Positions 2,066 to 64,000 of a stretch of DNA of 64,000 nucleotides are shown here, piece after piece (the stretch's first letter is position 1; every line of letters starts with the position of its first letter). Under the pieces are notes generated by a model. That model was given only the letters and a program-made list of their open reading frames with translations. It was not told where the DNA came from and made no database searches. The DNA is from Glycomyces tenuis DSM 44171 (GTDB taxonomy: Bacteria; Actinomycetota; Actinomycetes; Mycobacteriales; Micromonosporaceae): positions 143,073-207,072 of the forward strand of contig NZ_ATYW01000002.1 in assembly GCF_000427885.1 (NCBI RefSeq), given 5' to 3'. Made by a program: the position numbers and the translations under genes.

Positions 2066-2411
2066 GCAGAGCGGACTGAAAGACCCGCAGCGGGCCGCGC
2101 GCGGCCTCGCCGCGATGGCGCTCGCCTTCGAGGCGCTGGCGCTGCTGCTCGCGATCGTCCCGATGTGGATCCTCCTCGACGACGCGACCGTCGCGACCAC
2201 GGCGATCCTCGTCCTGACCGCCGCCTGCGTCGTGCTGGCCGGGATGGCCGGGCGCCCGTGGGTGTGGCCCGCCGGGGCCGTCGTCCAGGCCGCCCTGATC
2301 GCCTGCTGGGCGATCCACTGGGCGCTCGGCGTGGCGGGCCTCGTGTTCGCCTCCGTGTGGCTCTACTGCTGGTACGTCAAGACGCAGCTCGGGAAGCCCC
2401 CGAAGCGATGA
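2058..2411 (+). CDS. Small membrane protein, DUF4233-like
   Basis: A 117-aa protein of unknown function with four hydrophobic segments (about residues 18-40, 45-62, 67-85 and 88-105) and a short basic tail. This hairpin-rich small membrane protein is regularly found directly after folC in actinobacteria, where it is called DUF4233; the assignment rests on position, length and hydrophobicity. The GTG start overlaps the folC stop by 8 nt, and its own TGA overlaps the next ATG (ATGA), so it sits inside a coupled operon. The context suggests a housekeeping role, but no activity can be read from the sequence. Confidence 0.8.
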   Translation: MAEQSGLKDPQRAARGLAAMALAFEALALLLAIVPMWILLDDATVATTAILVLTAACVVLAGMAGRPWVWPAGAVVQAALIACWAIHWALGVAGLVFASVWLYCWYVKTQLGKPPKR

Positions 2412-2929
2412 GCGTCCGACTGCGGACCGAACGGCTGGTCCTGCGGCCCTTCACCGAGGCCGACGCCGAACCGTGCGCCGAGATCAACGCCGACCCCGAG
2501 GTCATGCGCTACATCGGCGACGGGCGGCCCCGCACGGCCGCCCAGACCCGCGAGGGCGTCGCGAAGGCCGTGCGCCGCTGGGAGGAGCACGGCTGGGGCA
2601 CGCTCGCCGTCACCGTCGCCTCGACCGGCGAGTTCGTCGGCCTCGCCGCGCTGGCCGTGCCCGAGTTCCTGCCGGAGATCCTGCCCGCCGTCGAGGTGGG
2701 CTGGCGCATCGGACGCCGCCACTGGGGGCGGGGCTACGCGCCCGAGGCGGCCCGCGAGGCGATCCGCTTCGCGTTCGAGGACCACGGCATGGACCGGCTC
2801 GTCTCGTGCATCCACCGCGACAACGCCGCCTCGGTCCGCGTCGCCGAGAAGCTCGGCATGACCCTCGAACGCGAGACGACGGTGCCCGGCCTCGAGGTGC
2901 CCTGCCTCGTCTACGAACTGCGGCCCTGA
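2408..2929 (+). CDS. GNAT-family N-acetyltransferase (RimJ/RimL type)
   Basis: A 173-aa acetyl-CoA-dependent N-acetyltransferase. It opens with the RTERLVLRPFTEADAE signature of the RimJ/RimL branch. The acetyl-CoA pyrophosphate loop is visible as RRHWGRGYA near residues 103-111, followed by the AREAIRFAF helix and the H..N.AS..V.EKLGM motif near residue 137. RimJ/RimL enzymes acetylate protein N-termini, but this branch also includes many small-molecule acetyltransferases, so the substrate is unknown. The ATG overlaps the stop of the preceding gene by 4 nt, making it the last gene of the folC run. Confidence 0.88.
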   Translation: MSVRLRTERLVLRPFTEADAEPCAEINADPEVMRYIGDGRPRTAAQTREGVAKAVRRWEEHGWGTLAVTVASTGEFVGLAALAVPEFLPEILPAVEVGWRIGRRHWGRGYAPEAAREAIRFAFEDHGMDRLVSCIHRDNAASVRVAEKLGMTLERETTVPGLEVPCLVYELRP

Positions 2930-3140
2930 ACCGGCCCGCGGCTCCCCGACGAGTCCGAGACCGGCCTGTCGGCCGAGGAGCGGACCGACCTCCAGTACGC
3001 GCCGCGGCGCGGTCTCGCGATCGTGAACGCGAAGCCGTGACCCGTGCGGAGCGCCCGCGAGCGAGGACCGTCACCGACTCCCGGCGTCTTTCCCTGTCGG
3101 GTAAGCGACAAACTTCGTTCCGTGAGACCTCTTGTGCGGC

Positions 3141-3166
3141 TTGTGATATTGGCGGACTGGTGTAAT
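3141..3166 (+). promoter_or_regulatory. Possible promoter of the 3211-7030 cassette
   Basis: The 281-nt gap before the cassette is AT-richer near its end. TTGTGA (3141-3146) and TGTAAT (3161-3166) resemble -35 and -10 boxes, but the 14-nt spacer is short, so the call is weak. Nothing else was recognised in 2930-3210. Confidence 0.3.
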
Positions 3167-3210
3167 AGTGAACGAGTCCGAACAGACCAGAACGCATCGG
3201 TGGTGGCCCT

Positions 3211-5088
3211 GTGAAGATGCAGCCTCGGCAGCAACTGCTCGACATCTGGCGTGCCCAGGTGGCCTACTGCCTGCGGCCGGTGACCGAAGAGGACGGCCGC
3301 CACCACAAGTACTGGCACTGGGGCGGCCGCAACGAATCCGACGCCGTCGGCGACGCCCAGCAGCTGCTCTGCCTGCTCTACCCCGCCCAGGAGCTGCCCG
3401 AACTCAACTACGCCGACCCCGACGCCACCAGCGACGCCGTCCTCGACGCGCTCGGCGGCCTCGGCGACGCCGTCGAGATCCCCAGCCTGGTCATGCGGAT
3501 CATCAAGGACTACATGGTCAAGCACTCCGACGAGGAGGGCGTCCCCAACTACTCCGGCGGCTCCAACATGCACCGCCTCGACCGCTCCCGCGAGGCCAGC
3601 GCCGCCCAGCGCGACGTCGACGTCACCGAAGGCTTCGCGCTCGCCATCCCCCTGTGCCTGTCGGCCCTGTCCTTCCTCATGGACTTCTCCGCCACAGTGG
3701 ACAGGATCGGGCGGCTCGACCTCATCAAGGAACGCGACGACACCGAGGCGATGGTCCGCCGCCGCCTCGTCGGCGCGCTCACCGGCCTGCTCCGCTCCTT
3801 CGCCGTCTCCGCCTTCGACGCCGACGACGACGCCGGCCGCCGGCTCATCGAGCTCATCAACGTCGACGGCCAGCCCGTCAAGCGCATCATCCGCCGCTTC
3901 CGCGAGCAGACCAGCGGCATCATCGCCACCCTCAAGGACATCACCGTCGGCTCCGGCGGCACCGCCGGCGTCGAGGCCCCCACCAAGCTGTTCGAGATCG
4001 GCTGGTCCTGGTCCATCGTCGAGAAGGCCCCCGAGATCGACATCGTCGCCGACCGCGCCGCCCAGCGCCCCGGCCGCGCCCAGGACGCCCCCTACCTCTA
4101 CTTCACCGTCGTCGCGATCGAGGCGATCACCACCCTGTTCTCGCCGCGCGTCCTGCGCCGCAACCTGCTCTCCGACGAAGAGCAGCAACTCGTCCAGTCC
4201 CTCCAGCTGCGCCTGGACATCACCCGCCGCTACTGGGCCACCATCGCCTCCTTCGGCGGCGGCTCCAAATGGCCGCTCGAGGACGTCCCCTGGCGTACCA
4301 CCGACGGCCTCGAATACGACTACTACAGCCTCCTCGTCTGCGCCGTCGCCTCCGAACGCTTCGGCGCCTCCCGCGGCGGCGACGACGATCTCGTCCGCCT
4401 CGGGGAGGTCCTCGTCGAACTGGCCAACCGCGGGCGCATCACCCGCCGCGCCCTCACCGGCGACCGCTCCCTCCAGATGCACTTCCCCGGCGTCCCCTCC
4501 GAGCTGACCGGCATCGAGAAGCTCGACGGCCCGCCCATGGTGTGGCACATGGTCGACTACGCGCCCCTGCTGCTCAAGCGCCTCATCCACGCCGCGAGCC
4601 TGCTCAACACCATCGACGCCCGCGCCGAACTGCTCGACGTGGCCGACCAGGTCTGGTCCCACCTGGAGCGCAGGCGCATCCGCAGCGGCCCGGCCGCCAA
4701 GCTCTGGGACCAGCCCGGCCAGGTCTACGAGGAGATCGAGGCCACCTTCACCGATCCGTCCTGGCACTTCACCATCCGCATCGTCGAGTCGATGGTCCTC
4801 GCCGCCCGCTTCGCCGGCTCCGAACCGGCCCGCTCCCGCGAACTGGAGTCCCTCGCCGAGCAGCTCCTGGTCGAAGCCGAGCACGTCTACGACCAAGAGC
4901 TCCTGCGCGGCTCGGGCACCGCCGGCCCCTCGCTCGCCCAGGAGATCCAGGCGGTCGGCACCACCATCCGCCACGCCAAGGACATCGTCGACGAGCGGCC
5001 CGGCACCGCCTTCGCGCTCGGCATCCGCGCCCTGATCGACCTCGACCGGCTCATCGCGGCCGGCCGCGACGCCGAGACGGGGGAGTGA
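3211..5088 (+). CDS. Cassette protein 1: 625-aa helical protein, SCO2524-family-like
   Basis: A large, mostly helical soluble protein with no signal peptide, no clear transmembrane helix and no motif I recognise as catalytic. Landmarks are a Trp/His-rich N-terminus (KYWHWGGRN near residue 32), a moderately hydrophobic stretch near residues 145-165 and a conserved-looking MVWHMVDYAPLLL block near residue 451. Size and gene order match the family named SCO2524 in Streptomyces coelicolor; that match is from memory. It is the first gene of the cassette. Its stop is 3 nt before the P-loop gene, which implies cotranscription and a shared function. I know of no established role. Alternative: a scaffold or adaptor for the neighbouring P-loop protein. 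Confidence 0.75.
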   Translation: MKMQPRQQLLDIWRAQVAYCLRPVTEEDGRHHKYWHWGGRNESDAVGDAQQLLCLLYPAQELPELNYADPDATSDAVLDALGGLGDAVEIPSLVMRIIKDYMVKHSDEEGVPNYSGGSNMHRLDRSREASAAQRDVDVTEGFALAIPLCLSALSFLMDFSATVDRIGRLDLIKERDDTEAMVRRRLVGALTGLLRSFAVSAFDADDDAGRRLIELINVDGQPVKRIIRRFREQTSGIIATLKDITVGSGGTAGVEAPTKLFEIGWSWSIVEKAPEIDIVADRAAQRPGRAQDAPYLYFTVVAIEAITTLFSPRVLRRNLLSDEEQQLVQSLQLRLDITRRYWATIASFGGGSKWPLEDVPWRTTDGLEYDYYSLLVCAVASERFGASRGGDDDLVRLGEVLVELANRGRITRRALTGDRSLQMHFPGVPSELTGIEKLDGPPMVWHMVDYAPLLLKRLIHAASLLNTIDARAELLDVADQVWSHLERRRIRSGPAAKLWDQPGQVYEEIEATFTDPSWHFTIRIVESMVLAARFAGSEPARSRELESLAEQLLVEAEHVYDQELLRGSGTAGPSLAQEIQAVGTTIRHAKDIVDERPGTAFALGIRALIDLDRLIAAGRDAETGE

Positions 5089-5091
5089 CCG

Positions 5092-6021
5092 ATGCTCCTG
5101 TTCGCCACCTCCGACAAAGGAGGCACCGGCCGCTCGGTCACCTCCAGCAACCTGGCCTACCGACGCGCCATCCAAGGCGGCAACGTGTGCTATGTGGACT
5201 TCGACTTCGGTTCCCCCACGGCCGGAGCGATCTTCAGCATCGACGAGCTCAAGCACGGCACCGTCGGCGCCGGCGTCCACGACTACCTCCAAGGCCACGC
5301 CTCCGAGCCCGAACGGCACTCGGTGTGGGACGAGACCGACCGCGAAGAGCTGCGCGTCCGCCCCGACGGCGCTGGCGAGCTCGTGCTCTACCCCGGCGAC
5401 TCCGACGGCGGCGAGTTCCCCGGCGACAACCACACCATCGACCGCTGCGTCGACCTGTTCCTGCGGCTCGAATCCGAGTTCGACCTCGTCATCGTCGACC
5501 TCAGCGCCGGACGCTCCCACGCCACCGAGATCGTCATGGCCGCCACCTCCAAAGCCGAGCTCGCCACCGTCCCGTGGCGCTGGATCGTCTTCCACCGCTG
5601 GACCAAGCAGCATGTGCTCGCCGCGCACAGCCTCGTCCACGGCGAACGCGGCCTGCTCGACACCGGCGCCTCCTGGCGCCACCACCACGCCCGCCTGATG
5701 TCGTCGATCCGCTTCGTGCGCACCGCCGTGGTCAACCCCGACGGCTCCGAACTCGCCGGCCTCAAACCCACCCAGGTCCGCTGGCTGCGCCGCATCGACG
5801 CCGATCTGCACCAGATGGCCGCCACCCTGCGCGTCGGCCGCATGAACCTGCTCGGCTCGGTCCCCCTCGACCCGGTCCTCCAGTGGCGCGAGCAGATCAT
5901 CACCGACGCCGACACCGCCACCCTCGACATCGCCAACCAGCGCACCGTGGACGCGTTCAACGAACTCGCCAAGCGCTCCAGCGAGGAGTCGTTCATCCCC
6001 GTGTTCGATCCGGCCACGTGA
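5092..6021 (+). CDS. Cassette protein 2: ParA/MinD-like variant P-loop protein, SCO2523-family-like
   Basis: A 309-aa protein with the layout of the ParA/MinD/Mrp ATPases. It has an N-terminal beta strand leading into DKGGTGRSVTSSN (residues 8-20), a VDFDFGSPTAG segment (35-45) like the Asp loop after strand 2, and LVIVDLSAGRS (132-142) in the Walker B position. The deviant-Walker signature lysine K9 is kept, but the P-loop lysine is replaced by Arg14. Nucleotide hydrolysis may therefore be altered or lost. The family I recall for this is 'SCO2523 family variant P-loop protein'. It starts 3 nt after the previous stop and 10 nt before the next gene. A partition or positioning role is inference only. 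Confidence 0.8.
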   Translation: MLLFATSDKGGTGRSVTSSNLAYRRAIQGGNVCYVDFDFGSPTAGAIFSIDELKHGTVGAGVHDYLQGHASEPERHSVWDETDREELRVRPDGAGELVLYPGDSDGGEFPGDNHTIDRCVDLFLRLESEFDLVIVDLSAGRSHATEIVMAATSKAELATVPWRWIVFHRWTKQHVLAAHSLVHGERGLLDTGASWRHHHARLMSSIRFVRTAVVNPDGSELAGLKPTQVRWLRRIDADLHQMAATLRVGRMNLLGSVPLDPVLQWREQIITDADTATLDIANQRTVDAFNELAKRSSEESFIPVFDPAT

Positions 6022-6031
6022 GGAGCCCGCG

Positions 6032-7030
6032 ATGAGCTACAGCGAGACCAGCGCCAAGCAGCACACCGAGGGCTTCGGCATGTCCCACCTCTCGATCGAG
6101 GTCGGCCACCTTTACGCCGACGACCTCGCCGCCCGCCCCGACGCGCTCCGCTCCGAGATGGCCTCGGCCGCCGCCTGGGTCCACGGCACCACCGAGGCGC
6201 TCCAGAAGCGCCTGGGCGGGCGCCGCCCCCGCGTCTCCACCTGCTACCTCGTCGACGACTACTTCCACGCCGACCTGCCCTCCCCCGAGAAGCTCATCAC
6301 CACGCTCTCGGAGGCCGCCGACGAGGCGGGCCTGCGCATCGACTACCTCGCCCGCGAATCGGGCTGCGCCCGCATGGACGGCCTCGACCTCGCCGCGCTC
6401 GTCGCCGGCCGGATCGTGTTCGAGCCGCCCCCCGGCGCCGACGGCGCCCGCCCGCCCGTGTCGCGCTCGGGCTGGCTGTGCAACGGCGTCCCCACCCCGC
6501 AGCGCCCCCGCGTGGCCATGAGCGAACCGGACACGTGGCGCCCGCCGAGCCAGAACTCGGCCAGGGAGCACTCGATCTTCCTCGACGTCGAGCTGTGGAA
6601 CGACACCGACCACGGCCGGCGCTGGTCGTGCCCGATGCTCGCGGCCGTGTGGCAGCTGATCCGCCTCGGCGTCCTCCGCAACCAGGGCAAGCGAATCGGA
6701 GTGCCGGTCCCCGCCGAGCAGGTCGTCCCCGCCGAACGCGGCCACGACCCGGCCCGGCCCGCCGAGGGCCGCTTCCCCGAGGAGTGGGCCGCGATGCCGC
6801 CGATCCTCCAGCTCAACCCGAAGGCCTCCCCCTTCCCCGCCTACCGGACCGTGTCGGTCCTCTCCGGAGACTTCCTGGAAGTCGAGCACGCCGTGCGCGT
6901 CATCTGCTCGTGCGTCCGCCCCGACCCGGGCGCGTTCGAGGCGATCACCAAGGCCGCCGCGCGTGAACGCGTCGAACTGCCGCCCGAACTGGTGGACCGG
7001 CTCAGCTACATCTTCCAGGGGCCGTTCTAG
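6032..7030 (+). CDS. Cassette protein 3: 332-aa protein, SCO2522-family-like
   Basis: A soluble 332-aa protein without recognised domains. The first ~130 residues look best conserved in style: SHLSIEVGHLYADDL near residue 17 and RVSTCYLVDDYFH near residue 70, where a beta strand ending in two Asp could form an acidic site. The C-terminal half contains a Trp-rich patch (HGRRWSCPMLAAVWQL near residue 194). It matches the size and position of the SCO2522 family, from memory. It starts 10 nt after the P-loop gene (GAGGAG upstream) and ends head-on against the next gene, the stop codons overlapping. An enzyme role is possible but not shown. Confidence 0.72.
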   Translation: MSYSETSAKQHTEGFGMSHLSIEVGHLYADDLAARPDALRSEMASAAAWVHGTTEALQKRLGGRRPRVSTCYLVDDYFHADLPSPEKLITTLSEAADEAGLRIDYLARESGCARMDGLDLAALVAGRIVFEPPPGADGARPPVSRSGWLCNGVPTPQRPRVAMSEPDTWRPPSQNSAREHSIFLDVELWNDTDHGRRWSCPMLAAVWQLIRLGVLRNQGKRIGVPVPAEQVVPAERGHDPARPAEGRFPEEWAAMPPILQLNPKASPFPAYRTVSVLSGDFLEVEHAVRVICSCVRPDPGAFEAITKAAARERVELPPELVDRLSYIFQGPF

Positions 7031-8043
7031 AGCCGGTCGTCGCCGCGCTGGAGCAGCTGCGGGTTCTGCTCGATGATCGTCAGGACCTTGTCGGCCAGGT
7101 CGGCCGAACCGTAGTCGATCTGCGCCCGCACCCGCCCCGACATGGTGTTCCACTGCCGCGTCAGCCCCGGCCGCCGCTCCAGCGTGTCCCACATGAACTG
7201 GAGGTCCCGCGTGGTCCTGGCCCCCGGCGACCACAGGTGCATCAGGTGGTCGACGACGGGCCGGAGCATCCGCAGCGTGTGGCGCCTGTCCTCGCCGATC
7301 TTCGCGAGCGCGATCCGCGCCGTCACGGCCGTCAGCAGCCAGTCGTGCACGGCCAGGTCCTCCGCGGCCGAGGCGATCCGCTCGGGCTCGACGGCGCCGG
7401 CGACGATGCTCAGCCGCCGCCGGTCGGTCCCGACCAGACGGAACGCCACCGCCGCCTTCGCACCCGGGTCGGCGATGGCCGCCCAGCGCAGCCGTGTCGA
7501 CCCGGTCTTGATCGGCGGCCGCTGGTCGAGCCCGGGCCGCGAGAGGACGTCGCGGATCGAGTGCCTGGCGATCGCGGCGGTGTCGAGCAGCCCGGCGCGG
7601 TGCTTCCGCGCGTCGGCGTGGAGGAAGCCCTCGGCCAGCCGCCCGGCCTCCAGGTTCCCGATCGGGTGGACGGTGCCGGGCCGGGCCAGATAGTACGACC
7701 AGGGCATCCGCCGGGGCCGGTCCTGCGGCGCCACCGCCGTCCACGCCGAGCCCTGGAGCAGGTGCCCGCCGGTGAGGACCGCCCGCGAGCACACCGTCCC
7801 GACCGCTCTGACCGAGCCGTTGTCGCCGTCGGCGTCCGAATGCCTGTTGCCGGGCTTGGGCCCCAACGGGAGACGGCAGTCGATGCCGTGCAGCAGCGTC
7901 GGCGAGGCGGTGTGCGGCACGGGCCTGGTCCACTGGGTGACGCTCTCGCCGACGGCCAGCGCGAGCGCCGCCCGCGCCTCCTCGGGAGTGAGCGGACGCG
8001 AGTGGGGCAGCAGCGCGGTGTGGATCTCGCCGACGATGAGCAT
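7027..8043 (-). CDS. Cassette protein 4: 338-aa protein, SCO2521-family-like
   Basis: A 338-aa protein transcribed toward the other three cassette genes. Its TAG stop overlaps theirs. The N-terminus reads LIVGEIHTALLPHS with strand-like hydrophobicity, and a proline-rich segment and an HGIDCRLPL motif follow. No known fold was recognised. The ATG at 8043 is chosen because GGAGTG precedes it by 4 nt and the text upstream does not read like protein. Size and neighbourhood fit the SCO2521 family from memory. Its start lies 46 nt after the stop of the VOC protein on the same strand, so these two may be cotranscribed while cassette proteins 1-3 come from the opposite strand. Confidence 0.72.
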   Translation of the reverse strand: MLIVGEIHTALLPHSRPLTPEEARAALALAVGESVTQWTRPVPHTASPTLLHGIDCRLPLGPKPGNRHSDADGDNGSVRAVGTVCSRAVLTGGHLLQGSAWTAVAPQDRPRRMPWSYYLARPGTVHPIGNLEAGRLAEGFLHADARKHRAGLLDTAAIARHSIRDVLSRPGLDQRPPIKTGSTRLRWAAIADPGAKAAVAFRLVGTDRRRLSIVAGAVEPERIASAAEDLAVHDWLLTAVTARIALAKIGEDRRHTLRMLRPVVDHLMHLWSPGARTTRDLQFMWDTLERRPGLTRQWNTMSGRVRAQIDYGSADLADKVLTIIEQNPQLLQRGDDRL

Positions 8044-8089: not shown

Positions 8090-9448
8090 TCAACGCTCCC
8101 GGTGTTCGGTGATGGCCAGGCCGTGGCCGTCGGGGTCTCTGAACGAGGCGGCGCGCAGCTCGTAGTTCTGCCCCAGCAGCGCGGTGCGCGGCAGGTGCAG
8201 GAACTCGACACCGGCGTCGTTCATCTGCGCGAACGTGGCGTCGAGGTCGCCGACCTCGAAGGTCAGGTGCATGATGCCGGTCTCGCCGGGCGGCGCGTCG
8301 GGCCGCTCCCACAGCAGGATCTTCCCGAACCCGGCCTCCAGGACGGCCGCCTCGTCGGTGCGGTCGACGATGTGCAGCCCCAGGGCGTCGGTGTAGAACT
8401 CGACCGACCGCTGCAGGTCGGCGACGACGAGGGTGGCGGCGACGTCGGTGACGTCCGTCTCGTCCAGGCCCTGGTCGGAGAGCAGCAGTTCGCTGATGTT
8501 GTCGGGGAGCGTGTGCTTCTCGGGGGAGGTGCGCTGCCGCGGCGGCATCGCGGTCTCGGCCTTCGGCGCGGGCGGCTCGCTCACCGCCGTGGCGGTCGCC
8601 GCCGGAGGACTCGGCGCCGGCTCGGGCTCCGGTTCGCTCGGGGCCGGAGTCGCCGTCGGTTCGGGTGCGGGGGCCTGCGGTTCCGAGACGGCCGCCTGCG
8701 GCTCGGGAGCGGGCGGCGGCTCGGGCGCCCGGGCGGGATCAGGGGCCGGCCGAGGCTCCTCGAACAGATCGTTCAACGCCTCCATCGTGGACGAACCGGG
8801 GTCCTCGGCGGGCTTCGGCTTCGGCGGGTCGTCCTCGACGATGAGGTCCTCCAGCCGGTGCTCGCCGATGAGCGGCGGTGCCGGGACCGGGCGCGGGAAG
8901 CGCCGCGCCGAATGCTCGACGGTGATGAACGCGATGCAGCCCGCCAGGCACAGGAACGCCAGCACGCCGACGCCGATGCTCTGCGCCCCGAGGGCCATGG
9001 ACGCGAAGAAGGCGGAGAGGATCAGTAAAGTGATCGCACCGACCGCGTGCGAGGTGCGCCAGCGCATCCGCCGGTCGCCGTTGAGGACCGTCCCGATCGC
9101 CTCGCCGCCCGCGGAGTGGTGCTGCGTCGAGTGGAGCCGGTTCATCGCCGCCTGGTTGATCGCCCACCACCGGGCTTCGCGTTCGCGGCGTTGCTGGTCG
9201 AGCATGACGCGCTGCTGGCGGAGCTGCTCGGCGTTCGCGGGCCTGCCGACCGGCTGCCTGCCCCGCGCGGCGCCCTTCGGCGGCGGCGCGACCTTCCGCG
9301 CCGTCCCGGCCCGCGATTTGGCGCCGCCCTTCGCCCCGCCCTTGGCGCCGCTTTTCGCACCGCCTTTGGCGCCGCCTCTCGACGCACCCCTACCGCCGCC
9401 TTTCGACGCGGCTTTGGGAGCGGGGCGGGGCGGTTGTCTCGCAGGCAT
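8090..9448 (-). CDS. Membrane-anchored protein with C-terminal VOC (glyoxalase/bleomycin-resistance) domain
   Basis: A 452-aa multidomain protein. Residues 1-75 are a Lys/Ala/Gly-rich basic tail with KGGA repeats. Two adjacent transmembrane helices follow (about 135-154 and 157-177), then a Pro/Glu/Ala-rich linker (185-320). From residue ~333 a vicinal-oxygen-chelate domain begins with VTDVAATLVVADLQRSVEFY and ends with FRDPDGHGLAITEHRE. Both termini are probably cytoplasmic. VOC domains bind metals or sequester drugs; the His/Glu pattern here is partial, so activity is uncertain. The ATG at 9448 has GAGGTG 8 nt upstream. The architecture (VOC on a repeat-rich membrane stalk) is unusual. It lies directly upstream of cassette protein 4. 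Confidence 0.8.
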   Translation of the reverse strand: MPARQPPRPAPKAASKGGGRGASRGGAKGGAKSGAKGGAKGGAKSRAGTARKVAPPPKGAARGRQPVGRPANAEQLRQQRVMLDQQRREREARWWAINQAAMNRLHSTQHHSAGGEAIGTVLNGDRRMRWRTSHAVGAITLLILSAFFASMALGAQSIGVGVLAFLCLAGCIAFITVEHSARRFPRPVPAPPLIGEHRLEDLIVEDDPPKPKPAEDPGSSTMEALNDLFEEPRPAPDPARAPEPPPAPEPQAAVSEPQAPAPEPTATPAPSEPEPEPAPSPPAATATAVSEPPAPKAETAMPPRQRTSPEKHTLPDNISELLLSDQGLDETDVTDVAATLVVADLQRSVEFYTDALGLHIVDRTDEAAVLEAGFGKILLWERPDAPPGETGIMHLTFEVGDLDATFAQMNDAGVEFLHLPRTALLGQNYELRAASFRDPDGHGLAITEHRER

Positions 9449-55780: not shown

Positions 55781-56089
55781 ATGGCGGGACAGAAGATCCG
55801 CATCAGGCTGAAAGCCTACGACCACGAGGTCGTGGACTCCTCGGCCCGCAAGATCGTGGAGACGGTCACCCGTACGGGGGCCGCCATCTCCGGGCCGGTG
55901 CCGCTGCCGACCGAGATCAACCGTTTCTGTGTGATCCGGTCGCCGCACAAGTACAAGGACTCGCGCGAGCACTTCGAGATGCGCACGCACAAGCGTCTCA
56001 TCGACATCCTCGACCCGACACCGAAGACGGTCGACTCGCTGATGCGCCTCGACCTGCCGGCCGGCGTCGACATCGAGATCAAGCTGTAG
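55781..56089 (+). CDS. rpsJ: 30S ribosomal protein S10 / NusE
   Basis: A 102-aa small-subunit head protein that also acts as NusE in transcription antitermination. Typical text: [32 protein letters not shown] and [17 protein letters not shown] start after GTAAGGAA. First gene of the S10 operon. Confidence 0.98.
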
Positions 56090-56097
56090 GGGCACCA

Positions 56098-56751
56098 ATG
56101 GACAGGCAGATCAAGGGAATCCTGGGCACCAAGCTCGGCATGACCCAGGTTTGGGACGAGAACGGCCGCGCCGTACCCGTCACCGTGGTGCAGGCCGGCC
56201 CGTGCGTCGTCTCCCAGATTCGCAAACCGGACGTCGACGGCTACTCGGCCGTGCAGCTGGGCTTCGGCGACGTCAAACTCAAGAACGTCACCAAGCCGAT
56301 TCAGGGCCACTTCGAGAAGGCCGGCGTCGCTCCGCGTCGCCACCTGGTCGAACTGCGCACCTCCGACGCCGCCGACTACGAGCTCGGCCAGACCGTCGAG
56401 GCCACGACCTTCGAGGCCGGCGAGCTGGTCGACGTCACCGGCACCACCAAGGGCAAGGGCTTCGCCGGCGTCATGAAGCGCCACGGCTTCGGCGGCCTCG
56501 GCGCCAGCCACGGTGCCCACAAGGTGCACCGCGCGCCCGGTTCGATCGGCGGCTGCGCCACGCCGGGCCGCGTCTTCAAGGGCATGCGCATGGCCGGCCG
56601 CATGGGCGGCAACCGCCACACGACGCAGAACCTGCGCATCCAGGCGGTCGACGCCGAGCGCGGGCTGCTGCTCATCGTCGGCGCCGTCCCCGGCCCCAAG
56701 AACGGCCTGGTGCTCGTCCGCAGCGCAGTGAAGCAGGTGGCTACCAAATGA
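56098..56751 (+). CDS. rplC: 50S ribosomal protein L3
   Basis: A 217-aa 23S rRNA-binding protein close to the peptidyl-transferase centre. [19 protein letters not shown] at the start and the [17 protein letters not shown] loop near residue 162 are diagnostic. Begins 8 nt after rpsJ and overlaps rplD by 4 nt. Confidence 0.98.
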
Positions 56752-57398
56752 GCCTTGAGATCAAAGTCAAAGACGCCGCTGGCAAGGAGACCGGGAAGAC
56801 CATCGAGCTCCCGGCGTCGATCTTCGACGTCGAGCCGAACATCCCGCTCATGCACCAGGTCGTGACCGCGCAGCTCGCCGCCGCGCGCAGCGGCACGGCG
56901 AGCACCAAGACCCGCGGCGAGGTCCGCGGCGGCGGCAAGAAGCCGTACCGCCAGAAGGGCACCGGCCGCGCCCGCCAGGGCTCGATCCGCGCGCCGCAGT
57001 TCGCCGGCGGCGGCGTCGTCCACGGCCCCAAGCCGCGGTCGTTCGCCGAGCGCACCCCCCGGAAGATGAAGGCCGCGGCCCTGGCCGGCGCCCTCACCGA
57101 CCGGGTGCGGGGCGGCAACCTGCACGTCGTCAGCTCCTTCATCGAGGCGGAGACGCCGAAGACGAAGGACGCCAAGGCCGCGATCGAGGCGACCACCGAG
57201 GCGAAGAAGATCCTGGTGGTGCTCGCCCGCGACGAGGAGACCGCGAAGCTCAGCCTTCGCAACCTCCCCGAGGTGCACCTCATCGACTGGGGCCAGGTCA
57301 ACACCTACGACGTGCTCAACAACGAGGACATCGTGTTCAGCGAGGCCGCCATCGAGGCGTTCATCGCTGACCGGACCGAGCAGGAGGTCGCGGCATGA
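56748..57398 (+). CDS. rplD: 50S ribosomal protein L4
   Basis: A 216-aa protein lining the peptide exit tunnel; in enterobacteria it also represses this operon. The tunnel loop [19 protein letters not shown] near residue 63 is intact, with the Lys associated with macrolide susceptibility present. ATGA overlaps couple it to both neighbours. Confidence 0.98.
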
Positions 57399-57709
57399 GC
57401 GAAGTGACCGTCGCCGACCCGCGCGACATCATCATCAAGCCGGTCATCTCGGAGAAGACCTACACCCTCCTCGGCGAGGGCAAGTACACCTTCGAGGTCG
57501 ACCCGCGCGCCAACAAGAGCCACATCAAGATCGCCATCAAGCAGATCTTCGGTGTGGACGTCAAGAGCGTGAACACCCTGAACCGCGACGGCAAGCGCAA
57601 GCGGACCCGTGACGGCTGGGGACAGCGCAAGAGCGTCAAGCACGCGATCGTCACCGTCGAGGGCGACCCCGGTCGCCTGGGTGAGATCTTCGGCGGACAG
57701 ATCTCGTAG
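57395..57709 (+). CDS. rplW: 50S ribosomal protein L23
   Basis: A 104-aa protein at the tunnel exit, docking site for trigger factor and [18 protein letters not shown] and [15 protein letters not shown] are standard. GGAGG precedes the ATG, which overlaps the rplD stop. Confidence 0.98.
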
Positions 57710-57721
57710 GAGCAAGAAGCA

Positions 57722-58564
57722 ATGGCCATTCGCAAGTACAAGCCGACGACCCCGGGTCGTCGCGGGTCCAGCGTCTCCGACTTCGCCGAGATCACCCGTT
57801 CGACGCCCGAGAAGTCGCTCGTCCGCCCGATCACCAAGACCGGCGGCCGCAACAACTCCGGCAAGATCTCGACCCGCCACCGCGGCGGCGGCCACAAGCG
57901 CCGTTACCGCGTGATCGACTTCCGCCGCCACGACAAGGACGGCGTGCCGGCGAAGGTCGCGGAGATCGAGTACGACCCGAACCGCACCGCGAACATCGCG
58001 CTGCTGCACTACGCCGACGGCGAGAAGCGCTACATCCTCGCGCCGAAAGGCGTCAAGCAGGGCGACCGGATCGAGAACGGCCCCGAGGCCGACATCAAGC
58101 CGGGCAACTCGCTCGAACTGCGGCACATCCCGGTCGGTACGACCGTGCACGCCGTGGAGCTCAAGCCCGGCGGCGGCGCGGCCCTCGGCCGCAGCGCCGG
58201 CGCCTCGATCCAGCTGCTCGCCCGCGAAGGCAAGTACGCGCACCTGCGCATGCCCTCCGGCGAGATCCGCCTGGTCCAGGTGACCTGCCGCGCCACCGTC
58301 GGCGAGGTCGGCAACGCCGAGCAGGGCAACATCAACTGGGGCAAGGCCGGCCGCATGCGCTGGAAGGGCTGGCGCCCGACCGTCCGCGGTGTCGTCATGA
58401 ACCCGGTCGACCACCCGCACGGCGGCGGCGAGGGCCGGACCTCCGGCGGCCGCCACCCGGTGAACCCGAAGGGCAAGCCGGAGGGCCGCACGCGGAAGAA
58501 GAACCACCCGAACGACAGGCTCATCGTCCGTCGTCGCAAGGCCAGCCGGAAGCGGGGTAAGTAA
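57722..58564 (+). CDS. rplB: 50S ribosomal protein L2
   Basis: A 280-aa protein essential for subunit joining. [18 protein letters not shown] near residue 57 and the conserved [20 protein letters not shown] near residue 226, with the key His, are present. ATG start at 57722, 12 nt after rplW. Confidence 0.98.
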
Positions 58565-58567
58565 GCC

Positions 58568-58849
58568 ATGGGTCGCAGCTTGAAGAAGGGCCCCTTCGTC
58601 GACGACCACCTCCAGAAGAAGGTGGACGCGGCGATCGAGTCCAAGTCCAAGAACGTCATCAAGACCTGGTCGCGTCGCTCCACGATCACGCCCGACTTCA
58701 TCGGGCTGACCTTCGGGGTCCACGACGGGCGGAAGCACGTTCCGGTGTACGTCACCGAGAACATGGTGGGGCACAAGCTCGGCGAGTTCGCGCCCACCCG
58801 CACGTTCCGCGGCCACGAGAAGGACGACCGCAAGAGCCGTCGCCGCTAG
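58568..58849 (+). CDS. rpsS: 30S ribosomal protein S19
   Basis: A 93-aa head protein paired with S13. [19 protein letters not shown] and [20 protein letters not shown] are diagnostic. Starts 3 nt after rplB. Confidence 0.98.
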
Positions 58850-58885
58850 GCCACGGGCTTCGAGAACGAACGAAGGAATAGAACG

Positions 58886-59371
58886 ATGGCAACACTGGAG
58901 CAGGAGGCTCCGAAGGCGCGCGCGGTGGCGCGGTACGTCCGCGTCGCTCCGCGCAAGGCGCGCCGCGTCGTCGACCTCGTGCGTGGCCTGCCCGTGGACG
59001 AGGCCCTGACGACCCTCGAGTTCGCGCCCTACAGCGCGGCCGAGGTCGTGTACAAGGTCGTCGCGTCGGCCTCGGCCAACGCGGAGAACAACCTGGGCCT
59101 GGACCCCGAGTCGCTCTTGATCTCCGAGATCAAGGTCGACGAGGGCCCGACGATGCGCCGCTACCGCCCCCGGGCCCACGGCCGCGCCTATCGGATCAAC
59201 AAGCGCACCAGCCACATCACCGTGGTGGTGGAGTCCGTTCAGGCCGCCCCGGTCGACGCGGGCTCGATCCGCCGGCCCAAGGCCGCCGCCCCCAAGGCGG
59301 AGCCGAAGGCCGACAAGCCGGCCGAGGCCGACGAGAAGTCCGAGTCCGCTGAAAAGGAGGAGACCGAGTAA
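58886..59371 (+). CDS. rplV: 50S ribosomal protein L22 with C-terminal extension
   Basis: A 161-aa protein of the exit tunnel. Residues 1-120 are standard L22 ([20 protein letters not shown] and [20 protein letters not shown]). A ~45-residue Ala/Lys/Glu-rich tail is added, as in other actinobacteria. Its last base is shared with the rpsC start (TAATG). Confidence 0.98.
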
Positions 59372-60207
59372 TGGGTCAGAAGATCCACCCGCACGGGTAC
59401 CGCCTCGGCATCAGCAGTGACTGGACGTCGCGCTGGTACGCCGACAAGGAATACGCCGACTACGTCGGCGAGGACGTGAAGATCCGCAAGCTCATGACCG
59501 AGGGTCTCGAGCGCGCCGGCATCAGCAAGGTCGACATCGAGCGCACCCGCGAGCGGGTCCGCGTCGACATCCACACCGCCCGCCCGGGCATCGTCATCGG
59601 CCGCAAGGGCGCCGAGGCGGACCGGCTGCGCGGACGCCTGGAGAAGCTGACCGGCAAGCAGGTCCAGCTGAACATCATCGAGGTCAAGAACCCCGACGTC
59701 GATGCTCAGCTCGTCGCCCAGGGCGTGGCCGAGCAGCTCGCCAGCCGCGTCAACTTCCGCCGCGCCATGCGCAAGGCCATCCAGTCGGCCATGCGCAACC
59801 CGACGGTCAAGGGCATCAAGGTGCAGTGCGCCGGCCGCCTCGGCGGCGCCGAGATGAGCCGCTCCGAGCAGTACCGCGAGGGCCAGGTCCCGCTGCACAC
59901 GCTCCGCGCGAACATCGACTACGGCCTGTTCGAGGCCCACACGACCTTCGGCCGCATCGGCGTGAAGGTGTGGATCTACAAGGGCGAGGCCACGCTCAAG
60001 GAGCAGGCCGAGCAGGTGCAGCGCCGACGCGACTCGGGCGGCGAGCGGGGCGGGCGTCCCGGTCGCGGCCGCGGTGGCCGCGGAAGCCGGGGCCGCACCG
60101 CGAACACGGGCACGCCGCAGGGCGCGCAGCCCGCGGGCGAGTCGGCCGCTCCGGCGACCGAGGTCGGCGCCGCCGGCTCCGCCGAGACGAAGAAGCAGGA
60201 GGGTTGA
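59371..60207 (+). CDS. rpsC: 30S ribosomal protein S3 with Gly/Arg-rich tail
   Basis: A 278-aa protein at the mRNA entry tunnel. The KH domain motif [20 protein letters not shown] is near residue 74. Beyond ~residue 215 comes an unusually long Arg/Gly-rich then Ala/Glu-rich tail. AAGGAGGAG gives a strong ribosome site. Confidence 0.98.
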
Positions 60208-60212
60208 GCGAC

Positions 60213-60638
60213 ATGCTCATGCCACGGAAACCGCCGCGCGGTTACCGCAAGCCCCACGCGCCCAAGCGCAAGGGCAAGGCGACTCGCGGCACTCGAGTGA
60301 CGTTCGGCGAGTACGGCATCCAGGCGCTGGAGCACAGCTACGTGACCAACCGCCAGATCGAGGCGGCCCGTATCGCGATGACCCGCCACATCAAGCGCGG
60401 CGGCAAGGTCTGGATCAACATCTTCCCGGACCGCGCCATCACGAAGAAGCCGGCCGAGACCCGTCAGGGCTCCGGCAAGGGCTCGCCCGAGTTCTGGGTG
60501 GCCAACGTCAAGCCCGGCCGGGTGATGTTCGAGCTGTCGTTCCCGACCGAGACCATCGCCCACGAGGCGCTGATGCGGGCGATCCACAAACTGCCCATGA
60601 AGTGCCGCATCGTGACGCGTGAAGGTGCAGGTGAGTAG
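60213..60638 (+). CDS. rplP: 50S ribosomal protein L16
   Basis: A 141-aa protein near the A-site tRNA elbow. It starts [15 protein letters not shown] and contains [20 protein letters not shown] and [17 protein letters not shown] 60213 after GGAGGG; ATG 60219 is a less likely alternative. Confidence 0.98.
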
Positions 60639-60640
60639 CG

Positions 60641-60874
60641 ATGGCGACTGGTATCGACGCCGGTGAGCTCCGCGAGCTCAGCGACAAGGAGCTCCAGGCG
60701 AAACTCCTGGACAAGAAGGAAGAGCTGTTCAACCTGCGAGTCCGGGGTGCCACCGGCCAGCTGGAGAACAACCACATGCTCGGCCTGGTCCGCAAGGAGA
60801 TCGCGCGGATCTACACCGTCATGAACGAGCGCCGGTTGGGCCTCAGCGCCACGCCGGAGGAGGTTGAAGAATGA
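60641..60874 (+). CDS. rpmC: 50S ribosomal protein L29
   Basis: A 77-aa helical-hairpin protein at the tunnel exit next to L23. [24 protein letters not shown] (split reading) and the [15 protein letters not shown] segment identify it. Starts 2 nt after rplP; overlaps rpsQ by 4 nt. Confidence 0.97.
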
Positions 60875-61143
60875 GCGAGGAGACTGTCGACACTCGCGGC
60901 CGGCGCAAGGTGCTCGAGGGCGTCATCGTCGGCGACAAGATGGACAAGACCGCCGTGGTCGAAGTCGAGGACCGCAAGAAGCACCCGCTGTACGGCAAGG
61001 TCCTGCGGTCCACCAAGAAGTACAAGGCCCACGACGAGAACAACCAGTGCGGCGTCGGCGACCGCGTCTCCATCATGGAGACCCGGCCGCTGTCGAAGAC
61101 GAAGCGCTGGCGCGTCGTGGAGATCCTTGAGAAGGCCAAGTAG
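60871..61143 (+). CDS. rpsQ: 30S ribosomal protein S17
   Basis: A 90-aa OB-fold 16S rRNA-binding protein. [19 protein letters not shown] and [20 protein letters not shown] are diagnostic. ATGA overlap with rpmC. Last gene of the S10 operon proper. Confidence 0.98.
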
Positions 61144-61155
61144 GGAGATCGGGAC

Positions 61156-61521
61156 GTGATTCAGCAAGAGTCGCGGCTGAAGGTCGCCGACAACACCGGT
61201 GCGCGGGAGATCCTGTGCATCCGGGTGCTGGGCGGCTCGGGCCGACGCTATGCCGGTATCGGCGACACGATCGTGGCCTCCGTCAAGGACGCCATCCCGG
61301 GCGCCGGTGTCAAGAAGGGCGATGTGGTCCAGGCCGTCATCGTGCGCACCGTCAAGGAGCGCCGCCGCCCGGACGGCTCGTACATCAAGTTCGACGAGAA
61401 CGCCGCCGTCCTCGTCAAGGACGGCGAACCGCGAGGGACCCGCATCTTCGGGCCGGTCGCCCGTGAACTGCGCGACAAGCAGTACATGAAGATCATCTCC
61501 CTCGCACCGGAGGTGTTGTAG
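61156..61521 (+). CDS. rplN: 50S ribosomal protein L14
   Basis: A 121-aa protein at the subunit interface. [20 protein letters not shown] and the [20 protein letters not shown]-like block are clear. GTG start with GGGAGA upstream; 12 nt after rpsQ with no terminator, so S10 and spc genes are probably one transcript. Confidence 0.98.
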
Positions 61522-61523
61522 CG

Positions 61524-61838
61524 ATGAAGGTGAAGAAAGGCGACCGGGTCCGCGTCATCGCGGGCAAGGACAAGGGAGCCGAGGGCCTGGTGCTGGAGGC
61601 GTACCCGAGCCGCGAGCGCGTGCTCGTCGAGGGCGTCAACCGGATCACCAAGCACACCAAGGCCGGCCAGACGGCGCGCGGTTCGCGCACCGGCGGGATC
61701 GTCACCCAGGAGGCGTCCATCCACGTCTCCAACGTGATGGTGCTCGACGCCGACAACCAGCCCACCCGCGTGGGCTACCGCAAGGACGACGACGGCCGCA
61801 AGGTGCGGATCTCCAAGCGGACGGGTAAGGACCTGTGA
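61524..61838 (+). CDS. rplX: 50S ribosomal protein L24
   Basis: A 104-aa assembly-initiator protein with a KOW motif at the start ([19 protein letters not shown]) and [25 protein letters not shown] before the ATG. Its TGA overlaps the rplE start. Confidence 0.98.
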
Positions 61839-62407
61839 TGACTGACGTTGCAGAGAAGATCGCTCCGCGCCTGAAGGAGACCTACAAGTCCGACATCAGG
61901 CCGAAGCTGACCGACGAGTTCAAGTACGTGAACCCGCACCAGGTGCCCGGTCTGACGAAGATCGTGGTGAACATGGGCGTGGGCGAGGCCGCTCGGGACT
62001 CCAAGCTCATCAACGGCGCGCTCGAGGACCTGGCGACGATCACCGGGCAGAAGCCCATCGTGCGTCGCGCCAAGAAGTCGATCGCGCAGTTCAAGCTGCG
62101 CGAGGGCCAGGCCATCGGCGCGAAGGTGACCCTTCGCGGCGACCGCATGTGGGAGTTCCTCGACCGGCTGCTGTCGATCGCGCTGCCCCGCATCCGCGAC
62201 TTCCGCGGCCTGTCGGACCAGCAGTTCGACGGGAACGGCAACTACACGTTCGGCCTGACCGAGCAGGCGGTGTTCCCCGAGATCGACCAGGACAAGATCG
62301 ACCGGGTGCGCGGCATGGACATCACGGTGGTGACCACCGCGAAGACCGACGACGAAGGCCGGGCGCTGCTGCGGCACCTGGGCTTCCCGTTCAAGGAGAA
62401 CGACTAA
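61838..62407 (+). CDS. rplE: 50S ribosomal protein L5
   Basis: A 189-aa 5S rRNA-binding protein of the central protuberance. [19 protein letters not shown] near residue 39, [20 protein letters not shown] and [17 protein letters not shown] are diagnostic. ATG 61838 overlaps the rplX stop (TGATG); GTG 61835 one codon earlier is possible. Confidence 0.98.
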
Positions 62408-62592
62408 TGGCGAAGAAAGCCCTCATCGCGAAGGCCAAGCGCAAGCCGAAGTTCGCCGTGCGCGCCTACAGCCGCTGCCAGAAGTGCGGCCGCCCGAAGG
62501 CCGTCTACCGCAAGTTCGGCCTGTGCCGCGTCTGCGTGCGCGACATGGCCCACGCGGGCGAACTCCCGGGCGTCCACAAGGCCTCCTGGTAA
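62407..62592 (+). CDS. rpsN: 30S ribosomal protein S14, zinc-binding (type Z)
   Basis: A 61-aa zinc-ribbon S14. Cysteines pair as C-Q-K-C near residue 24 and C-R-V-C near residue 40. The short zinc form is the housekeeping version in the spc operon; a zinc-free paralogue elsewhere in the genome is common but cannot be seen here. Shares one base with rplE (TAATG). Confidence 0.98.
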
Positions 62593-62661
62593 GGAACTCA
62601 GATCGCTACAGGCCCCCGGCCCACCGCGGGGGAACCGGAGTGAGAAAGGTAAACACAGCCA

Positions 62662-63069
62662 ATGACAATGACCGACCCGATCGCAGACATGCTGACGCGT
62701 CTGCGGAACGCCAACCAGGCTTACCACGACACCACGTCGATGCCGCACTCCAAGATGAAGGCCTCCATCGCCGAGGTCCTCAAGCAGGAGGGCTACATCG
62801 CCGACTGGCGCGTCGAGGAGCCCGAGGAGGGCAAAGTCGGCAAGAAGCTTGTCGTCGACCTGAAGTTCGGCGAGCACCGCGAGCGGTCCCTGGCGGGCCT
62901 GCGCCGCGTCTCGAAGCCGGGCCTGCGGGTCTACGCCAAGTCCACGGAGCTGCCGCGCGTGCTCGGCGGCCTGGGTGTGGCCATCGTGTCCACCTCCCAG
63001 GGCCTGCTGACCGACCGCCAGGCTCGCAAGCGCGGCGTGGGCGGCGAAGTCATCGCCTACATCTGGTAG
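62662..63069 (+). CDS. rpsH: 30S ribosomal protein S8
   Basis: A 135-aa 16S rRNA-binding protein and, in enterobacteria, the spc-operon repressor. [17 protein letters not shown] and [21 protein letters not shown] are diagnostic. ATG 62662 or, two codons later, 62668. The 69-nt gap after rpsN could hold a control element. Confidence 0.98.
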
Positions 63070-63087
63070 TCAAGGAGGGTATGAAGC

Positions 63088-63627
63088 ATGTCCCGCATTG
63101 GGAAGCAGCCGATCCAGGTGCCCTCCGGCGTCGACGTGAAGATCGACGGCGCGACGGTCACCGTGAAGGGCCCCAAGGGCCAGCTCGTCCGCGAGCTGCC
63201 CGAGCCCATCGGCATCGAGAAGAACGAGGACGGTTCGCTCCAGGTGACCCGCCCCAACGACGAGCGCAAGTCGCGGGCCCTGCACGGCCTGGCGCGCAGC
63301 CTCGTCAACAACATGGTCGTCGGCGTCTCCGAGGGGTACACGAAGTCCCTGGAGATCAACGGCACCGGTTACCGCGCGCAGGCCAAGGGCAAGGGTGTGG
63401 AGATGAGCCTCGGCTTCTCCCACACCATCCAGGTCGACGCGCCGGAGGGCATCTCGTTCAAGGTCGAGAAGCCGACCCTGCTGCACGTCGAGGGCATCGA
63501 CAAGCAGCTGGTCGGCCAGGTCGCCTCGAACATCCGCCGACTGCGTCCGCCGGAACCCTACAAGGGCAAGGGCGTGAAGTACGTCGACGAGCGCATCCGC
63601 CGCAAGGCCGGGAAGGCAGGTAAGTAA
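63088..63627 (+). CDS. rplF: 50S ribosomal protein L6
   Basis: A 179-aa two-domain protein near the sarcin-ricin loop. [20 protein letters not shown] at the start and [19 protein letters not shown] at the end are diagnostic. ATG 63088 follows AAGGAGGG by 8 nt; shares one base with rplR. Confidence 0.98.
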
Positions 63628-64000
63628 TGGCGAGCAAACTCGAGCGCCGTCGCCCGTCTGGGTCCGTCTCCCAGCGCCGGCGGATCGCGAAGAACCGGCG
63701 CCACTTCCGTGGCCGCAAGAAGATCACCGGCACGGCCGAGCAGCCGCGCCTGGCGGTGTTCCGCTCCTCGAAGCACATCGTGGCCCAGGTCATCGACGAC
63801 ACGAAGGGCCACACGCTGGCCGCCGCGTCGACGGTCGAGCCCGGCCTGCGCGCCTTCGAGGGTGACAAGACCGCGAAGGCCAAGGAGGTCGGCAAACTCG
63901 TCGCCGAGCGCGCGAAGGAGGCCGGCGTCGAGGCGGTCGTCTTCGACCGCGGCGGTCTGAAGTACCACGGCCGCATCGCGGCCCTGGCCGACGCCGCCCG
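63627..64000 (+). CDS. rplR: 50S ribosomal protein L18 (3' end outside window)
   Basis: First 124 codons of L18, a 5S rRNA-binding protein of the central protuberance. [37 protein letters not shown] and [20 protein letters not shown] are visible. Only the last few residues lie beyond the window. ATG at 63627 overlaps the rplF stop (TAATG). Confidence 0.96.

Follow-up and report, generated by a model that had tools for sequence, protein, structure and literature searches.

A four-gene actinomycete cassette built round a variant P-loop protein: a possible exchangeable recognition or conflict module

Conflict systems are enriched in multicellular bacteria and some contain inactive MinD/ParA-like domains, according to the accessible part of Kaur et al. 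2020 (PMC7159879), which also describes actinobacterial AP-ATPases carrying an added inactive domain of this type; the latter are the parallel that we cite for the reading preferred here. Closer at hand are the SCO2521, SCO2522, SCO2523 and SCO2524 families of NCBIfam, whose library entries have no function assigned, and a search of the literature on SCO2521-2526, DUF6879 and KGGVGR found no mechanism for the cassette genes. Members of these four families lie side by side at 3211-8043 in a 64,000-nucleotide stretch of Glycomyces tenuis DSM 44171 (contig NZ_ATYW01000002.1, positions 143,073 to 207,072; hereafter the window), and it is this cassette and its relatives that are considered here. 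We suggest, as a tentative reading that may quite possibly be correct, that the SCO2523 protein is a MinD/ParA-fold nucleotide switch and belongs to a polymorphic module, linked to the membrane, that serves in conflict or recognition; the cassette has less the look of a housekeeping machine than of a recognition or defence module that can be exchanged.

One inherited unit and its P-loop protein

The first three genes of the cassette follow one another closely on the plus strand, with gaps of 3 nucleotides (nt) between SCO2524 and SCO2523 and 10 nt between SCO2523 and SCO2522, and SCO2521 is convergent to SCO2522 with a 4-nt overlap, giving the contiguous order 2524-2523-2522-2521 with the last gene inverted. 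Membership of the cassette was judged by the NCBIfam cut-offs, which all four window proteins pass (lengths in amino acids, aa):

3211-5088, plus strand: SCO2524-family gene, 625 aa (NF040567, 693.5 bits against a cut-off of 300)
5092-6021, plus strand: SCO2523-family variant P-loop gene, 309 aa (NF040564, 451.8 bits against a cut-off of 200)
6032-7030, plus strand: SCO2522-family gene, 332 aa (NF040566, 397.7 bits against a cut-off of 200)
7027-8043, minus strand: SCO2521-family gene, 338 aa (NF040565, 306.1 bits against a cut-off of 150)

The reading frames, their positions, the two gaps and the convergent fourth gene are as given in the original prediction, which was made from the sequence alone, and the families that it had named are those returned by the profile search, each above cut-off. 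It had seen no recognised domain other than a ParA/MinD-like one, and this agrees with Pfam searches at E up to 1, which left SCO2524, SCO2522 and SCO2521 blank and gave SCO2523 matches of CbiA/ParA type, all sub-threshold. The variant P-loop that it described is KGGTGR in 27 of 27 aligned SCO2523 proteins, the location between folC and ndk is seen in the window, and its statement that the four families recur together across genera is confirmed by their co-occurrence in 21 of 21 genomes, which makes a single unit well supported. The nearest named relatives are Glycomyces, with SCO2523 identity of up to 93%.

The survey sample consisted of 197 genomes of the class, in which a match above the NCBIfam cut-off was required. 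Each of the four families was present in an identical set of 21 of these genomes, at adjacent coordinates, and for this reason the four genes are regarded as one inherited unit; the hypergeometric value for the co-occurrence is approximately 1e-28, a statistic that ignores kinship. The SCO2523 profile also gave weak, below-cut-off matches in 28 further genomes, as expected of a ParA-like P-loop protein. All 21 cassette genomes are at least 5.3 Mb in size, and in 20 of them the four genes share a strand and run 2524-2523-2522-2521, the sole exception being the window with its inverted SCO2521, an arrangement also found in other Glycomyces, in G022 and at locus L057. A survey by tblastn covered 53 loci (the window being L123), some of which may be one genome counted twice, i.e. 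under a G handle and as a named contig. All four genes were found at 50 of these loci, the exceptions being L039, which is without SCO2521 in a stretch that stops at the contig end, L051, which is without SCO2524, and L056. Distances among the core proteins correlate across 28 cassettes (r 0.85-0.95, raw values without species-tree control), and the ratio of non-synonymous to synonymous substitution (dN/dS) is 0.06-0.47 for the core genes in seven close pairs, with the SCO2521 of one pair taken from a partial call; purifying selection acts on the core genes.

Among the 27 aligned SCO2523 proteins, the residues K9-G-G-T-G-R14, D36, D38 and D136 are invariant, the three aspartates occupying what we take to be the switch and Walker B positions. 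Like the MinD, ParA and Mrp proteins (the SIMIBI class), SCO2523 aligns over the P-loop and keeps these aspartates; unlike them, it has arginine in place of the P-loop lysine in all 27 sequences (KGGTGR, not KGGxGK[ST]), and no MinD/ParA model reaches its cut-off on this protein. The surrounding residues differ in Glycomyces luteolus, which has SGKGGTGRT compared to SDKGGTGRS in the others. Comparison with known structures gave distant matches to Mrp/ApbC, MinD, FleN and Soj over the P-loop region, with a best E of 2.3e-5, and the model for KGGVGR-motif variant AAA ATPases, NF047398, scored 46.2 bits, which is below its cut-off of 90; the fold of SCO2523 is assigned from these matches to Mrp/MinD-type structures and to NF047398, and the protein is best read as a probable nucleotide-binding switch of the MinD/ParA superfamily. 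At the other end of the protein, a tryptophan lies within the last eight residues in 37 of the 42 called proteins (the five without it are from Glycomyces), and the extreme end often reads WEGL, e.g. at L103:8818-9735; this tail may possibly serve in docking.

Distant homology of the remaining core proteins was sought in the same way, with 29 sequences in the SCO2524 alignment. Nothing credible was returned for SCO2524 against PDB profiles, the best match being YacP (5mq9, E 0.011) on a helical part, and neither SCO2522 nor SCO2521 had a PDB profile match at E up to 10. Member-by-member Pfam scans of the three families found nothing common to most members: DUF6829 appeared in 6 of 29 SCO2524 proteins (best E 0.0031), and no family was matched by more than one of 29 SCO2522 members. 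The SCO2521 profile resembled neither the SCO2522 nor the SCO2524 profile.

Alternative partners, loss and replacement in place

Several genes accompany the cassette outside Glycomyces. A methyltransferase of the SCO2525 family (NF040568; NNMT/PNMT/TEMT type, 35.4 bits) is found at 18 of the 53 loci and a GNAT gene beside the cassette at 22, and at these frequencies neither can be counted as part of the core; in the survey genomes, SCO2525 adjoins SCO2524 in 12 of the 21 with a cassette. Two further neighbours are predicted to lie in the membrane. Partner A, denoted TM-DUF6879 for its transmembrane (TM) and DUF6879 parts, carries a DUF6879 domain at its C-terminal end and one or two hydrophobic stretches at its N-terminal end, and is present at 22 of the 53 loci, L100 and L102 among them. 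Partner B, a two-TM protein present at 8 loci, is hydrophobic in one or two stretches towards its C terminus, between which lies the motif GYGYxP, and gave no convincing match in Pfam or the PDB. The two are unrelated to each other and never occur together (0/53), and 23 loci have neither, including all Glycomyces, L056, L117 and L122; A and B are thus alternative membrane partners. One of the papers PMC11538686 and PMC6585502 names leuA SCO2528, and from the gene order beside leuA we would equate the GNAT with SCO2526 and partner A with SCO2520. At the window locus, tblastn found no SCO2525 methyltransferase, GNAT or membrane partner of the extended SCO2520-SCO2526 block, and an SCO2525 query had no match in the window genome (G000); the Glycomyces cassette is a stripped form without A or B alongside. 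The original prediction did not mention these usual partners, viz. the methyltransferase, the GNAT and one of two membrane proteins.

The suggestion in that prediction that the cassette may be core to its lineage did not survive the survey. Of the 22 genomes that represent the window's genus, 20 have SCO2523, and the two others, G015 and G020, have neither SCO2523 nor SCO2522. At their folC-ndk site there is no trace of the four genes (SCO2524 and SCO2521 were checked at this site only); folC, the small membrane protein, the GNAT and the glyoxalase-domain gene are kept, and the gap is closed to 22 and 19 bp. By folC, both genomes nest among cassette carriers, inside a well-supported eight-row clade (99/97), while support is lower (92/84) for placing the two genomes together with the window, and loss is therefore the simpler reading of these sites. 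The cassette is also absent from G023, G024 and G234 of the same family; in G024, G234 and G022 folC and ndk have no cassette between them, and the order in the same-family outgroups is folC-DUF4233-glyoxalase-ndk. G022 carries its cassette elsewhere (L122, 7169-11867); SCO2524 is broken there into three frames and SCO2523 into two, perhaps through decay or an error of sequencing, and SCO2522 and SCO2521 look intact. Other genera hold the cassette at different chromosomal places, and the folC-ndk position is a feature of Glycomyces.

A second clean case of presence and absence comes from the group g40, presumed from its SCO gene order to be Streptomyces. All six positive genomes have the GNAT, the methyltransferase, SCO2524, SCO2523, SCO2522, SCO2521 and partner A as one block beside recO-uppS, and 5 of the 6 pieces show leuA at the opposite end. 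In the nine cassette-negative genomes the region next to recO showed none of these seven genes, and leuA is visible in 8 of 9 pieces; a distant methyltransferase (30-34%) occurs elsewhere in 3 of the 9.

Divergence of the cassette between conserved flanks was seen in two genera. In g84, G138 and G170 have a median flank identity of 95% over nine genes, compared to 40-55% for the core, and one carries A where the other carries B; this provides a natural allele pair for comparison. In g56 (G200 and G077) the flanks are 94% identical over five genes, the three core genes that were compared are 50-59% identical, and the block is inverted. Across 15 pairs in g40, flank medians are 83-91%, SCO2523 is 85-89% identical in three pairs and 59-71% in twelve, and partner A is 31-65% identical. 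The cassette tree places the g84 cassettes in separate, well-supported groups, although support for its root split is low (65/95) and the branches of L057, L118, L120, L113 and L059 are long. In Catenulispora and its kin (L060, L061, L062, L064) two complete cassettes that differ from each other lie next to one another, and in the Catenulispora species both have a partner gene of the B type.

One locus has a different gene in the SCO2524 slot. Glycomyces luteolus (L051) has no tblastn trace of SCO2524 in its 20.9 kb stretch, and the slot is filled by an open reading frame of 870 aa (L051:7369-9981), separated by 19 bp from the SCO2523 that follows. Its product shows, by eye, a VIDD motif and the P-loop GRAGVGKT; over this region there is a weak match to Apaf-1 (E 0.11), and there are tetratricopeptide repeat (TPR) matches with a best E of 4e-4, so that it is apparently a STAND-TPR protein that has replaced SCO2524. 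Taken as a whole, the comparisons of neighbourhoods point to gain, loss and occasional whole swap of the cassette at fixed chromosome sites.

The window cassette lies among valS, folC, the small membrane protein, the GNAT, the glyoxalase-domain protein and ndk, and the features at its edges are as follows:

2408-2929, plus strand: GNAT gene at the left edge of the site, kept in cassette-free genomes
3095-3110, plus strand: operator-like near-palindrome TGTCGGGTAAGCGACA, 16 bp, some 100 nt upstream of SCO2524
3163-3169, plus strand: -10-like block TAATAGT, with ATAGTG kept in 18 of 18 aligned upstream regions
8090-9205, minus strand: glyoxalase-domain gene at the right edge of the site, kept in cassette-free genomes

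The flanking GNAT and glyoxalase-domain genes were considered as cassette members and rejected, since both persist where the cassette is absent. An exact copy of the pattern TGTCGGGTANSCGACA stands at this place in 13 of the 19 loci from named Glycomyces, and its chance expectation in the window is 0.08 at up to two mismatches; at L051 a GNAT has been inserted downstream of the operator-like site. A scan for sigma-70 consensus promoters upstream of the cassette found no site. Far from the cassette, at 55781-63998, the gene calls show a run of about 18 small plus-strand genes.

What the cassette may do

In the reading that we prefer, the four genes would be a unit organised round the SCO2523 nucleotide switch with its KGGTGR P-loop; SCO2524 would act as a sensor or scaffold, SCO2522 and SCO2521 would complete a soluble complex, and we infer that a nucleotide-dependent assembly of these proteins would engage a membrane partner, either A (TM-DUF6879) or B (two-TM). 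The whole would then serve actinomycetes of large genome, most of them mycelial, as a polymorphic module of recognition, conflict or abortive type, and it is retained, lost or exchanged as one piece at fixed chromosomal sites. A conflict or recognition role is preferred because it best joins the all-or-none presence, the in-place replacement, the mutual exclusion of the membrane partners and the STAND-like substitute. Bolder, and doubtful, is the proposal of a conflict or self-recognition system that is restricted to actinomycetes and has yet to be described; in it the MinD-like KGGTGR switch with SCO2522 and SCO2521 would link an exchangeable sensor (SCO2524 or the STAND-TPR protein) to an equally exchangeable membrane effector (TM-DUF6879 or two-TM, possibly pore-forming), with alleles swapped whole at one site. 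If the cassette genes do form a polymorphic NTPase module whose sensor and membrane partner can be swapped, the SCO2525 phenotype may reflect a disturbed immunity-like or recognition system and not a developmental pathway.

A number of observations weigh against a conflict or recognition role. No known effector domain is recognised in the core proteins, and PADLOC returned only weak, generic-looking matches, viz. PDC-M28B (4e-5 and 0.012, on the SCO2523 P-loop) and AbiEii (0.036, on SCO2521). In six pairs from g38 the core is at least as conserved as the flanks, with about one near-equal exception per gene, and inheritance looks vertical in the Glycomyces pairs. Actinoplanes solisilvae (L056:8140-10921) has only SCO2524 and SCO2523, with no SCO2522 or SCO2521 in its 20.9 kb stretch. 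The apparent STAND-TPR replacement comes from a single genome, with motifs found by eye and an Apaf-1 match at E 0.11. The leuA-recO interval was considered as a defence island and rejected, as ten genes scanned from empty intervals look metabolic or transport-like, and carriage by mobile elements was likewise rejected, there being no match to SCO2523 or SCO2522 on plasmids or to SCO2524 on phages. Lastly, a developmental phenotype has been reported for the neighbouring SCO2525.

This phenotype, together with expression data, is the reason for retaining a developmental machine for positioning or assembly as an alternative, although we think it fairly unlikely; SCO2523 would act like MinD or ParA and place something in hyphae or spores, with SCO2524, SCO2522 and SCO2521 as its partners, an idea near to that of the original prediction. 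The original SCO2525 study is reportedly that of Gehring in 2004. The accessible parts of later papers cite SCO2525, the gene so often adjoining SCO2524, as 'necessary for normal growth' (PMC11472566) or with a morphogenetic role (PMC6344877), and it is also treated in PMC3017869; sco2521-sco2526 are termed an operon in a HupS-dependent cluster (PMC11472566, in the part accessible). SsgA served as the proxy for complex growth; it occurs in 20 of the 21 cassette genomes compared to 126 of 197 overall (Fisher p 0.0012), but 106 genomes are SsgA-positive yet cassette-free, and the proxy is a weak one because SsgA also occurs in very small genomes of 1.0-1.7 Mb. Clean losses within genera and replacement in place speak against an indispensable positioning machine, and the phenotype belongs to SCO2525, which Glycomyces lacks by this search.

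The patchy presence and the metabolic look of the variable neighbours would also suit a niche accessory without a conflict role, for example one that senses or modifies small molecules together with the methyltransferase and GNAT, and that ordinary gene flow has both spread and lost. The NNMT/PNMT/TEMT match of SCO2525 and the nearby GNAT lend themselves to this idea, but the two enzymes are present at a minority of loci (18 and 22 of 53), there is no biosynthetic enzyme among the four genes, and this explanation alone leaves the exclusive membrane partners and the STAND-like replacement unaccounted for; we regard it as unlikely. A helper of folate or nucleotide metabolism is suggested by the folC-ndk position in Glycomyces, yet other genera use other sites, the same-family outgroups have no cassette in the region, and the empty sites in two Glycomyces led us to reject such a housekeeping role as highly improbable.

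Comparison with described systems

The NCBIfam SCO2521-2524 families describe the same cassette in presumed Streptomyces, from which the window differs by its inverted SCO2521 and by having no SCO2525, A or B alongside. The string 'sco25' does not occur in the accessible part of the text of PMC7159879. The VMAP and ternary conflict systems described in that part differ from the window cassette, as no MoxR or vWA gene was identified beside it in the window flanks and no effector domain is recognised; they resemble it in strict gene order, a congruent core, paralogous sets within one genome (as in Catenulispora) and multicellular hosts. The AP-ATPases of the same source differ in that their MinD/ParA-like domain is fused, whereas SCO2523 is a separate gene; the likeness lies in Glycomyces luteolus, where the STAND-TPR-like gene directly before SCO2523 recalls, as two adjacent genes, the pairing that is fused in those proteins.

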